From Falsiroseomonas stagni DSM 19981 (lineage in GTDB: Bacteria > Pseudomonadota > Alphaproteobacteria > Acetobacterales > Acetobacteraceae): a DNA stretch of 64,000 nucleotides. The notes beneath the pieces were generated by a model, which saw only the letters and a list, made by a program, of their open reading frames with translations, had not been told where the DNA came from and did not search any database. How positions within the stretch are numbered: position 1 is the stretch's first letter; the number at the start of each line of letters is the position of its first letter. Shown one piece after another: positions 13,787 through 54,116 of the stretch. The stretch spans positions 259,725-323,724 of the forward strand of contig NZ_FOSQ01000004.1 of the NCBI RefSeq assembly GCF_900114315.1, given 5' to 3'. The translations under genes and the position numbers were made by a program.

Positions 13787-13815
13787 TTGACAAAACGAAC
13801 AAAATAGGAACATAC
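13787..13815 (+). promoter_or_regulatory. Promoter with perfect LexA (SOS) operator upstream of the muramidase gene
   Basis: A consensus -35 hexamer TTGACA at 13787-13792 is followed by GAAC-N7-GAAC at 13797-13811 (GAAC 13797-13800, AAAATAG, GAAC 13808-13811). This is the reverse complement of GTTC-N7-GTTC, the established LexA target of alphaproteobacteria. The box covers the spacer and the expected -10 position (13810-13815, CATAC-like), as for a repressor that blocks polymerase. The stretch is AT-rich relative to the genome. The muramidase ATG is 35 bases downstream with a GGAGAGA ribosome site. Confidence 0.8.
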
Positions 13816-13845
13816 GCCGCGAGACTCGTTGTCGGAGAGAACGCC

Positions 13846-14778
13846 ATGGCGCTCATCCCTCTTACTGAGGAAGGCCTTCGCGGCGCCATGCGCGATAGCC
13901 GCTACTGGCAGTCGGGCCATCCTGAGCGCGAAGACTATGTGGGCTGGGTGAGCCACGGGTGGCGCGCGCTCCATGGATCGCCATACCAGGACCCGTCTGG
14001 TAGCCCGGTCTTGTTTGTTCAGGCTTACACGCGCGTCCGCGATGGGCACATCGAGCAGGTATCCGCTCACCAGAGGTCCACCCCGGCTCGAACCGGCGAC
14101 AACGCTGCCGGTGGAGTACCCGCACAGCGGGCTGGGGATGGCGCAGAGCAACCGGCAACGCCGCCGAACGACACGGCGCCGCCGAGACCATCGGAGATCT
14201 CAAGGAATGGCGCGGCGTTTCTGTATCAGTGGGAGGCACAAGCCGGTGTAAGTGACAGGCCACACTGGCCTGGCGGCAACAGTGGTGTGACGCTAGGGCC
14301 CGGCTACGACATGGGCAGTCGGAGCCGCGAGCAGGTGCAAGGCGACCTCACCGCAGCAGGGGTTCCAGCCAACGCTGCCGCAGCGCTCGCCGGGGGAGCC
14401 GGACTCAGAGGCCAGGAAGCCGGCAACTTCGCTACTGCACAGCGGGATGCGGTCAGGCTTACCGACGACCAGCAGAGGGCATTAATGACGATTGCGGTGG
14501 CGCCCGCCCAGCGTGCTGTCGCAAACGCAGTTGCGGTTCCACTGAACCAAAATCAGTACGATGCGCTCGTCTCGCTTACCTACAACATTGGCAATGGCGC
14601 ATTCCAGCGCAGCACGCTGCTGCGTCGTTTGAACGCCGGCGACTATGCAGGCGCGGCAGAGCAGTTTGGGGTTTGGGCTCGATCGGGGGGCGCTGACCTG
14701 CCTGGACTCGTCGCGAGGCGCGCGGCCGAGCGGCGGCTTTTCGATTTCCCGTTCGGTACTGACGGAGCAGTGCCATGA
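13846..14778 (+). CDS. Pesticin-like muramidase (lysozyme fold), putative SOS-induced bacteriocin/effector
   Basis: 310 residues. The C-terminal half (about 120-305) is a T4-lysozyme-like muramidase: Glu130 in FLYQWEA, the block SGVTLGPGYDMG at 146-157 giving Thr149 and Asp155, and LNQNQYDALVSLTYNIGNGAF near 233-253. The SGVT-x-G-x-G-x-D pattern is that of the pesticin toxin domain. Residues 1-80 form a separate domain ending in VQAYTRVRDGHIEQVSAHQRS, a motif I associate with phage minor head/tail-type proteins; a Pro/Thr-rich linker (80-118) follows. There is no signal peptide. It cleaves, by inference, the glycan strands of peptidoglycan. The gene sits behind a LexA operator, overlaps the inhibitor gene by ATGA, and has visibly lower GC than its neighbours, suggesting transfer. 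Confidence 0.8.
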   Translation: MALIPLTEEGLRGAMRDSRYWQSGHPEREDYVGWVSHGWRALHGSPYQDPSGSPVLFVQAYTRVRDGHIEQVSAHQRSTPARTGDNAAGGVPAQRAGDGAEQPATPPNDTAPPRPSEISRNGAAFLYQWEAQAGVSDRPHWPGGNSGVTLGPGYDMGSRSREQVQGDLTAAGVPANAAAALAGGAGLRGQEAGNFATAQRDAVRLTDDQQRALMTIAVAPAQRAVANAVAVPLNQNQYDALVSLTYNIGNGAFQRSTLLRRLNAGDYAGAAEQFGVWARSGGADLPGLVARRAAERRLFDFPFGTDGAVP

Positions 14779-15188
14779 TCCAGCGAGCCGTTCTCGCTGC
14801 GGCTCTGCTCGCCGGCGCCACGGTGGCTCGTGCGCAGGCCGCGTCCGAGCCGGACCAACAGCCACTGGAGGCGTGCCGAAACCATCCCGGCTGGACGCCG
14901 ACCGGCGCTGCCATCTGCGCTCGCGAGGCGACGGATGCCGCGGACCAGCGCATTGCGGTGTTGATGCGGGAGGCCAGATCGCGTGCCCTTGCGTTGCGCA
15001 GCGCCGACCTCGCCGCGTCTCAGGCGGATTGGCAACGGTACCGGGACCTCCACTGCGGCCTCTTCGATCGGGGAGACGGATCGAGCGGCAGCCAGACGCC
15101 CGCCGATGTTCAACTGTGCCGCCTGGCCCGCACCCTCCGTCGGGAATCGGAGTTGCGGGAACTGATCTACCTTATGGGTCCACGCTAG
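14775..15188 (+). CDS. LprI-like (DUF1311) periplasmic lysozyme inhibitor, putative immunity protein
   Basis: 137 residues with a clear Sec signal peptide (MIQRAVLAAALLAGATVARAQA). The mature part has the DUF1311/LprI pattern: four cysteines (34, 48, 94, 115), the ASQADWQRYRDLHC segment with Trp86, and a final Cys-x-x-R-x-x-R helix. LprI of Mycobacterium tuberculosis inhibits lysozyme. Its ATG overlaps the stop of the muramidase gene, so the two are translationally coupled under one SOS promoter. I infer that it protects the producer's periplasm from the muramidase, as Pim does against pesticin. The domain is also found away from toxins, so the pairing is the main argument. Confidence 0.78.
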   Translation: MIQRAVLAAALLAGATVARAQAASEPDQQPLEACRNHPGWTPTGAAICAREATDAADQRIAVLMREARSRALALRSADLAASQADWQRYRDLHCGLFDRGDGSSGSQTPADVQLCRLARTLRRESELRELIYLMGPR

Positions 15189-52855: not shown

Positions 52856-52966
52856 CTAAGGCGGGTTTAGCCGATTTAGCCGATTAGACGTCTTTAGTGG
52901 GGTCTTCGCGCTGCCTTCGGGGGGCGGACACAGGTCGGATGGTGATGGCGGGAACATAGAGCGAAC
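52856..52966 (-). repeat. Dispersed LexA-box/AATCGGC element, copy B
   Basis: On the minus strand: GTTC-N7-GTTC (52952-52966, a perfect alphaproteobacterial LexA box), a C-rich stretch, CTGTG..CCGCC, ACGTCTAA, and two AATCGGCTAA units ending near 52866. The block order matches copy A at 8608-8709. A 33-codon frame (ATG at 52957, stop at 52856) runs through it and overlaps the box; copy A has no equivalent frame. The nearest gene is lpxR-like at 53103, 137 bases away on the plus strand; whether the box controls it is unknown. Confidence 0.6.
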
Positions 52967-53102
52967 AAGACCGCCTGGCCAGCAGAATCGCGGCCGGCGC
53001 GGCTGCCCCGTGATCCCGGGAAGGTGATGGGGCGGGGGGCGCCTTCGCGGCGGGGTTGCGGTATCGGAAGGGTTGCCTCCTCCCTCCGGATCGCCCGCCC
53101 CC

Positions 53103-54116
53103 ATGCGCCACCTGCTCCTGCCCCTACTCCTCCTCGCCGGACCGGCGCTGGCGCAGGTCCCGCCGCTCGCGGTGGTGCCCCCACCGGCGCCGGCGCCAGA
53201 CCCGCGCGGCAGCTTCACCTTTAACTACGAGAACGACACCCTGGCCGGGACCGATCGCTACTACACCAGCGGGGTGCAGTTGGCCTGGCGGTCGCCCTCC
53301 ACCGAACTGCCGGGACTGCTCCGCTTCCTCGATGGGCAACTGGATGCGCTGATCGGGCCGGGGGAGGTGCGCTGGGGCTTCGGCCTCGGCCACGCCATCT
53401 ACACGCCGCGCGACACGCTCTCCCGCATCCCGGACCCGACGGACCGTCCCTATGCCGGGCATCTCTATGGCGCGCTGGTGCTGCAGCGGGACGAGGGCTT
53501 CGCGCTGTCCACGCTGGAATTGCAGGCCGGCGTGGTCGGTCCCTCCGCGCTCGGCGAATTCGTGCAGAACAACGTCCACGACCTGATCCGCGACTATTCC
53601 GCCAATGGCTGGTCCCGCCAGCTGAAGGACGAGCCCGCGCTGAACATGGTGTTCGAGCGCACCATGCGGACGCCGGCGCTGCGCGTCGGCGGCATCGAGA
53701 TCGACCTGCTGCCCTCCGCGACCTTCGCGCTCGGCACCGTCAGCACCTATGCGGGTGCCGGCGCGACACTGCGGATCGGCAATGGGCTGGAAGCCGATTA
53801 CGGCGCGCCGCGCATCCGCCCCGCGCTGGTCGGTTCCGCCTTCTTCCAGCCGCGGCAGGAATTCGGCTGGTACGGTTTCGTCGGCGGGCAGGGGCGGGCG
53901 GTGCTGCGGGACGTGTTCCTGGATGGCAACACCTGGCGGAATGACGGGCCTTCCGTGGACAAGCGACCCTTCGTCGGCGACCTCTCCGCCGGCTTCGTCG
54001 TGCATTGGCGCGGCTTCCGGCTTGCCTACAGCCAGGTGATGCGGACGGAGGAATTCTACGGCCAGCGCGGCGGCGCGCAGTCCTTCGGGTCGCTGGCGCT
54101 GACGGCGCGGTTCTGA
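53103..54116 (+). CDS. lpxR: LpxR-family lipid A 3'-O-deacylase (DUF2219)
   Basis: 337 residues with a Sec signal peptide (MRHLLLPLLLLAGPALAQ). The mature start FNYENDTLAGTDRYYTSGVQLAW holds the Asn44-Asp45 pair matching the Ca-binding/catalytic N-D of Salmonella LpxR; YTPRD and FVQNNVHDLI supply further conserved positions including a His. The chain ends LALTARF, as an outer-membrane barrel does. It removes 3'-linked acyl groups from lipid A at the outer membrane. An in-frame TTG at 53073 is less likely. Confidence 0.88.
   Translation: MRHLLLPLLLLAGPALAQVPPLAVVPPPAPAPDPRGSFTFNYENDTLAGTDRYYTSGVQLAWRSPSTELPGLLRFLDGQLDALIGPGEVRWGFGLGHAIYTPRDTLSRIPDPTDRPYAGHLYGALVLQRDEGFALSTLELQAGVVGPSALGEFVQNNVHDLIRDYSANGWSRQLKDEPALNMVFERTMRTPALRVGGIEIDLLPSATFALGTVSTYAGAGATLRIGNGLEADYGAPRIRPALVGSAFFQPRQEFGWYGFVGGQGRAVLRDVFLDGNTWRNDGPSVDKRPFVGDLSAGFVVHWRGFRLAYSQVMRTEEFYGQRGGAQSFGSLALTARF

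Follow-up and report, generated by a model that had tools for sequence, protein, structure and literature searches.

A probable muramidase with a scaffold-like N-terminal segment in Acetobacteraceae: a candidate family of capsid-docking polymorphic toxins

Pesticin and the colicins are under SOS-type control and lie beside an immunity gene, and pesticin has a receptor-binding import domain. T7-type phages carry internal lytic proteins, and fusions to fragments of the P22 scaffold have been used to load cargo into capsids. Passages in two papers on MuF toxins (PMC5576092, PMC3482391) describe varied toxin domains joined to a phage-head protein, in most cases followed by a small gene; MuF (SPP1 Gp7) is stated to bind the portal, the toxins are described as temperate-phage-encoded, and capsid loading and delivery have already been proposed for them. 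For P22, passages in the sources place the coat-binding domain of the scaffold in a C-terminal helix-turn-helix (PMC9962691, PMC12005531) and describe expulsion of the scaffold on maturation (PMC12005531).

Judged by these passages, the MuF toxins are the nearest precedent for the locus described here, with which they share a phage-head part, varied toxin domains and a small downstream gene. In contrast to MuF, the tag in our locus resembles the C-terminus of a scaffold, the toxin and most of its relatives examined lie away from capsid genes, and the capsid operon looks domesticated. Cargo loading by fragments of the P22 scaffold, whose coat-binding end (described in passages of PMC9962691) leads cargo into the capsid, is likewise similar, although here it is proposed as a natural system, for toxins. 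Among the literature matches listed, in which subscription journals are thinly covered, no title or abstract opening described scaffold-tagged toxins or the element reported below.

The DNA analyzed (the window) is a stretch of 64,000 nucleotides at G000:C27:259725-323724, where G000 is the genome of the window. The features of the locus were determined from an ORF listing, Pfam and homology searches, with the constraint on the linker judged by dN/dS:
13787..13792, + strand, TTGACA, a -35-like hexamer
13797..13811, + strand, LexA-type box GAACAAAATAGGAAC (GAAC-N7-GAAC), just 3' of the -35-like hexamer
13846..14778, + strand, toxin gene, 310 aa
13867..13983, + strand, toxin residues ~8-46, homologous to the T7-type scaffold C-terminus (AMRDSRYW block), proposed capsid-docking tag
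13999..14091, + strand, toxin residues ~52-82, second conserved half of the N-domain (VQAYTRxRDG..VSAHxRS), phrog_21154 match at 4.1e-6
14092..14199, + strand, toxin residues 83-118, weakly constrained linker
14200..14760, + strand, toxin residues 119-305, predicted GH24 muramidase domain with the E130/T149/D155 block
14775..15188, + strand, LprI-family candidate immunity/inhibitor gene, 137 aa, predicted periplasmic, ATGA overlap with the toxin stop

An earlier, sequence-only reading had proposed a pesticin-type block in the 310-aa ORF, and E130, T149 and D155, which we take to be catalytic, are indeed present. It had also suggested a comparison with pesticin and GH24 models, and in Pfam this returned a strong match to Phage_lysozyme (PF00959) at residues 204-295 (7.4e-30) and one to Pesticin (PF16754) at residues 144-221 (6.2e-6). 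The latter scored 26.7 bits against a cut-off of 25.8 over profile positions 30-101 of 156, i.e., it is partial and barely above the cut-off. Pesticin chains aligned with residues 144-218 alone, and residues 1-143 matched neither pesticin nor a Pfam import domain, in agreement with the earlier statement that the N-terminus is not a pesticin import domain. The profile of the gene transfer agent endolysin BgtA gave 83 bits, far under its 315-bit cut-off. The protein is probably a GH24 muramidase with a catalytic E-T-D block, and its catalytic domain appears far closer to phage GH24 endolysins than to pesticin.

The overlapping ORF at 14775-15188 encodes an LprI protein (PF07007, 3.8e-10) with a hydrophobic, signal-like N-terminus and four cysteines (Cys 34, 48, 94 and 115), much as had been read from the letters. 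A link to type VI secretion was considered for this protein and dropped, its T6SS_VasE match being sub-threshold (0.036) and taken as chance. That the muramidase and a periplasmic LprI inhibitor form a toxin/immunity pair is well supported by sequence. The locus shares SOS-type control and an adjoining immunity gene with pesticin and the colicins and, with pesticin, a muramidase that has a similar E/T/D block; it differs from pesticin in that the match is confined to residues 144-221, the rest of the catalytic domain being nearer phage GH24 endolysins. Of the proposed pesticin-like bacteriocin/immunity pair, the toxin and its periplasmic inhibitor were retained while the likeness to pesticin shrank to a weak match with part of the catalytic domain, one that endolysins surpass by far. 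We judge the pesticin-like bacteriocin label to be wrong or incomplete and delivery in the manner of pesticin to lack support; what defines the protein is its N-terminal domain.

The nearest named matches to the toxin were two Roseomonas-titled records (85% and 81% over all 310 residues), and full-length homologues occur in 3 of 299 family genomes, a count that includes the genome of the window. Free phages and plasmids were tried as carriers of the whole protein and rejected, since none of 1,006 matching phage records and none of 779 matching plasmid records covered 80% of it; the N-domain alone gave three weak matches to phage records at E ≤ 10. The lower GC that had been taken as a sign of mobile origin was clearest at codon position 3, where GC was 0.67 in the toxin and 0.77 in the inhibitor gene against 0.89 in recG and 0.91 in an ABC gene. 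By eye, one orthologue adjoins recombinase-like genes and the other lies ~3 kb from transposase-like genes, and neither recG nor ABC genes were recognized in the 12 kb read around each. The pair is probably accessory and of mobile origin. In two orthologue comparisons dN/dS was 0.08-0.10 in the N-domain and the muramidase domain against 0.5-0.7 in the linker; as these ratios indicate, both domains are under purifying selection, the linker much less so.

A perfect LexA box overlapping a TTGACA promoter had been claimed for the toxin. Both the box and the hexamer are where they were placed, but the box follows the hexamer and does not overlap it, and a sigma-70 scan found no full consensus promoter at the toxin. 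The box GAACAAAATAGGAAC is unchanged in both orthologues and equals the box of the capsid operon in the same genome (GAACAAAACAGGAAC) in 14 of 15 letters. Within the window alone, GAACN7GAAC occurred twice (0.56 expected), which is not beyond chance, as 10 of 100 shuffles held at least two. In the whole genome, 121 matches were counted on both strands against 18 for the reversed pattern, and one copy lies ~100 nt upstream of a lexA match; the 3.8-kb recA locus has none. Given this enrichment and the copy upstream of lexA, reading the box as an operator is sound, and a LexA-type operator that would confer SOS-type control at the toxin promoter is well supported by sequence. The second copy in the window (52952-52966) lies ~110 nt upstream of an ORF (53073-54116) that by eye resembles an outer-membrane lipid A deacylase.

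The N-domain (the N-terminal ~80 residues) was then compared with the scaffold of a podovirus-like capsid element found elsewhere in the genome:
1253-15024 of L196 (G000:C22:538001-557000), conserved podovirus-like operon with S24 repressor and SOS-type box

The scaffold of this element matches the T7 capsid assembly protein (PF05396, 5.8e-15). An HMM built from 37 toxin N-domains only, run against 8,499 ORFs, matched 44 of 45 element scaffolds (E 1e-10 to 3e-7), and 43 of these matches end within three residues of the C-terminus. In the exception (L206) the scaffold frame continues beyond the motif, and in the missed scaffold (L207) the motif is present in another, short frame. The reverse search with a scaffold-end HMM found 27 of the 37 toxins, 23 of them at E ≤ 1e-3 (window toxin 9.6e-5); against docking, 10 toxins were missed and one apparently unrelated ORF (L151) scored 7.7e-5. 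Aligning N-domain residues ~8-46 with the scaffold end by hhalign gave a probability of 97.8 (E 9.4e-13). On the strength of these profile comparisons, this segment is homologous to the extreme C-terminus of the element's T7-type scaffold, in line with the phage-like motif noticed earlier in residues 1-80. The two share an MRDPRYW..P.....V..G(F/W)..L segment; in the toxins it is N-terminal, its middle is three residues longer and a second conserved motif follows. A pesticin-like import domain, tried as an identity for the N-domain, was rejected, the domain being scaffold-like and pesticin aligning to the catalytic part alone.

Further relatives of the motif were found at lower similarity. The N-domains of two toxins from another taxonomic family (f93) match the last PF05396 positions below the cut-off (E 0.0013 and 0.02), a scaffold-position gene of an isolated Pelagibacter phage (similarity E 7e-4, annotated as hypothetical) has the same motif at its end, and two T7-like phage scaffolds end in a partial DPRY version of it. 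Two observations count against docking, namely that only one of the 37 N-domains matched PF05396 directly (E 0.094) and that toxins have the tag at their N-terminus, the opposite end from scaffolds. Expulsion of the P22 scaffold on maturation also weighs against that reading, in which cargo would have to be retained in the mature particle, as does the need for a capsid-borne muramidase to get into the periplasm.

In G000 the element begins with the S24-type repressor and the box, after which come genes for the portal protein, the scaffold, the major capsid protein, tail and internal virion proteins, a T7-type tail fiber, a terminase and a cell-wall hydrolase; G237 counterparts supplied the names of the two tail proteins. 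Pfam scans of ten element proteins, a set that left out two small genes at the start and the larger tail protein, revealed neither an integrase nor a replication gene. The major capsid gene was detected in 114 of 397 family genomes and 24 of 102 genera, as a single match in 108 genomes, and in every one of the 13 genomes sampled from the window's genus. In three f105 genomes (L272, L278, L279), the sole capsid match is separated from portal and scaffold by 0.24-1.25 Mb or is found on a different contig, and this arrangement speaks for domestication. A second small protein, ~105 aa from its likely start and ending in the scaffold motif, follows the scaffold in these genomes. The element looks domesticated, of the gene-transfer-agent type. 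With gene transfer agents and PBSX-like defective phages it shares an apparently domesticated operon present across genera, mostly with one capsid gene per genome; it differs from them in its T7-like head and tail set and its SOS-type box. Outside Acetobacteraceae, 385 genomes were drawn from the class, and a further 28 of these gave matches to the N-domain profile (E ≤ 1e-5); many of these matches are scaffold-like by frame length and stop position, and toxin-like ORFs are present in G848 and G858.

Within Acetobacteraceae, 43 of 397 genomes have an N-domain match at E ≤ 1e-3, some through scaffolds or fragments, and the N-domain recurs in 37 ORFs examined, with differing C-termini (GH24, alpha/beta-hydrolase and unnamed types). 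With related proteins added, the C-termini include alpha/beta-hydrolases (PF00561; L148 and L142 score above its cut-off, L126 and L156 do not), Ntox44 (L270, 1.3e-9), the BPSL0067 family (L269, 1.3e-20) and an Mrr-type restriction endonuclease domain (L159, 4.1e-34, in an ORF that may be chimeric). Ntox50 (L139, 7.6e-17) accompanies the second half of the N-domain alone. A GRYQ-type domain (L111, L163, L274) has no library match and was judged by eye to be a lytic enzyme, the nuclease-like type of L132 and L128 was likewise named by eye, and several further C-termini are of unnamed type. G000 itself has four intact-looking members and one without its start. Toxin genes L124, L135 and L257 lie near the tail module of what is apparently another prophage, whose spike-like protein has residues 182-759 in common with the element's spike (~46% identity). 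A search for a MuF (SPP1 gp7-like) domain gave no Pfam match in the window protein or in 20 further proteins scanned.

A kept downstream gene lies within 45 nt of 27 of the 37 ORFs with a full N-domain (the other 10 have none or a dropped row), and in 13 of those 27, including the window and both orthologues, it overlaps the toxin gene by 4 nt (-4 nt). The partner table held 51 rows, of which 15 were dropped (gene fragments, a transposase-like gene at L149 and a scaffold neighbor). Partners with a signal-like N-terminus accompany 9 of 9 envelope-type toxins (GH24, alpha/beta-hydrolase and GRYQ-type) and none of 27 others, where signal-like is defined by a simple hydropathy threshold set after the values were seen and the dropped L149 row would have passed it. 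As predicted from these N-termini, the partner proteins would sit in the compartment that matches the target of their toxin. By eye, immunity-like paralogues occur in tandem or nearby at L111, L112 and L259. A signal-peptide-like ORF at L111 (7918-8307) resembles a partner gene by eye and has no toxin directly before it; it may be an orphan immunity gene. The arrangement of one N-domain, many C-termini and a downstream partner gene is that of polymorphic toxins, and suggests a trafficking role for the N-domain.

All 24 genomes with a best N-domain match below 1e-11 (7 genera) carry the element's major capsid gene (hypergeometric 1.5e-14 by genome and 1.9e-5 for 7 of 7 genera, values that treat phylogenetically non-independent genomes and come from lists compared by eye). 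Among 19 genomes with weaker matches, 16 are capsid-positive; the other three (G073, G155 and G319, E 8e-4 to 1e-3) speak against docking, as does G858, in which N-domain-like genes stand beside a divergent capsid match alone (28-32%). A toxin gene lies between the scaffold and major capsid genes in G237 and G421, which belong to the same genus, and in the IMG/VR contig L259; in 37 other elements this gap measures 149-493 nt. The window toxin, on the contrary, is not adjacent to the capsid operon, which counts against docking.

Element promoters were read in 44 of the 114 capsid-positive genomes. A perfect GAACN7GAAC was present in 34 of the 44 (0.27 expected) and in 9 of 47 toxin upstreams (0.22 expected), where the expectations are somewhat too low owing to a mostly coding, GC-rich background and the nine include three mutual orthologues. 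The remaining 38 toxin upstreams have no perfect box, among them those of the G000 sister toxins L111 and L112, so SOS control is not claimed for the whole toxin family; G205 has a boxed toxin orthologue yet no box at its own element promoter (L201). Both observations weigh against the docking reading. The word [AT]TAGGA[AT] was found in 22 of 47 toxin upstreams and 27 of 44 element promoters (0.8-0.9 expected), which is a lead only, because for an AT-rich word this background makes the expectation too low. The toxin-like ORFs L163 and L164, with the second N-domain half alone, have a one-mismatch box upstream. Taken with the co-occurrence and the synteny in three records, the same box at a minority of toxins suggests that the N-domain is tied to the resident capsid operon.

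Our best reading is that these proteins form a new family of capsid-docking polymorphic toxins, of which the window toxin would be a muramidase member. On DNA damage, LexA would leave the toxin promoter and, at the same type of box, would release the podovirus-like head-and-tail operon elsewhere in the genome. The N-domain would dock on coat protein as procapsids form, loading the cargo in trans; lysis would free particles through which the muramidase reaches the periplasm of other cells, and periplasmic LprI would let kin survive. Sister toxins in the same and related genomes would supply different warheads, and their immunity proteins would lie in the compartment concerned. We consider this account as a whole, from joint SOS release through tag-mediated loading and delivery to the protection of kin, to be somewhat probable. 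The common domain, its scaffold-end homology, the capsid co-occurrence, the boxes (at the majority of the element promoters read and upstream of a minority of the toxin genes) and the partner compartments are based on sequence, and from there we infer induction, binding, loading, delivery and killing.

The SOS-type box, the coupled inhibitor gene and a pesticin-type block just above the Pfam cut-off would also suit a classical colicin- or pesticin-like bacteriocin, released by lysis, imported by its N-domain via an outer-membrane receptor and killing with its muramidase, LprI being the immunity protein. We hold this to be unlikely, given the homology of the N-domain to the end of a phage scaffold, its co-occurrence with a capsid operon and the lack of a pesticin or Pfam import-domain match in residues 1-143. 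The muramidase could instead be a virion-associated lysozyme of the element particle, aiding only DNA entry or particle release while LprI protects the producer; the internal lytic proteins of T7-type phages and the similarity to GH24 endolysins (including BgtA, far under its cut-off) point that way. The same N-domain, or half of it, is however joined to Ntox50, Ntox44, hydrolase and unnamed domains, many partners have no signal-like N-terminus, and a toxin with full-length homologues in only 3 of 299 family genomes is not a core part of the particle, which makes this explanation quite improbable.

A capsid sensor would also be compatible with the similarity to the scaffold and with the SOS-type box. 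Such an anti-phage or element-control factor would sense or trap coat protein through an N-domain that imitates the scaffold end, and its enzyme would kill or disarm the infected or induced cell. This we rate lowest, with little expectation that it is right, since it is hard to see why a muramidase or lipase acting in the producer's own cytoplasm would be paired with an inhibitor in the periplasm, and toxin genes lie within the element's own head operon in three records.

Relative to MuF toxins, the docking reading would add a scaffold-like tag, scattered cassettes that supply the toxins in trans, and the SOS-type box of a conserved element. If true, scaffold-tagged cargo in a domesticated capsid would be an added delivery route in bacterial warfare and the tag a natural capsid-loading tag, and a previously unexplained N-terminal domain would become a testable interaction with coat protein. 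A broader statement, on which our belief is evenly divided, is that in Acetobacteraceae and some other members of their class a domesticated T7-like particle, induced by the SOS response, is maintained as a common shell for toxin delivery, which several unlinked cassettes per genome load in trans via a scaffold-derived tag; such a shell would be a natural counterpart of engineered scaffold-fusion cargo loading. Docking of toxins, if true, would explain what a widely conserved podovirus-like operon is for and why its promoter has kept an SOS-type box.
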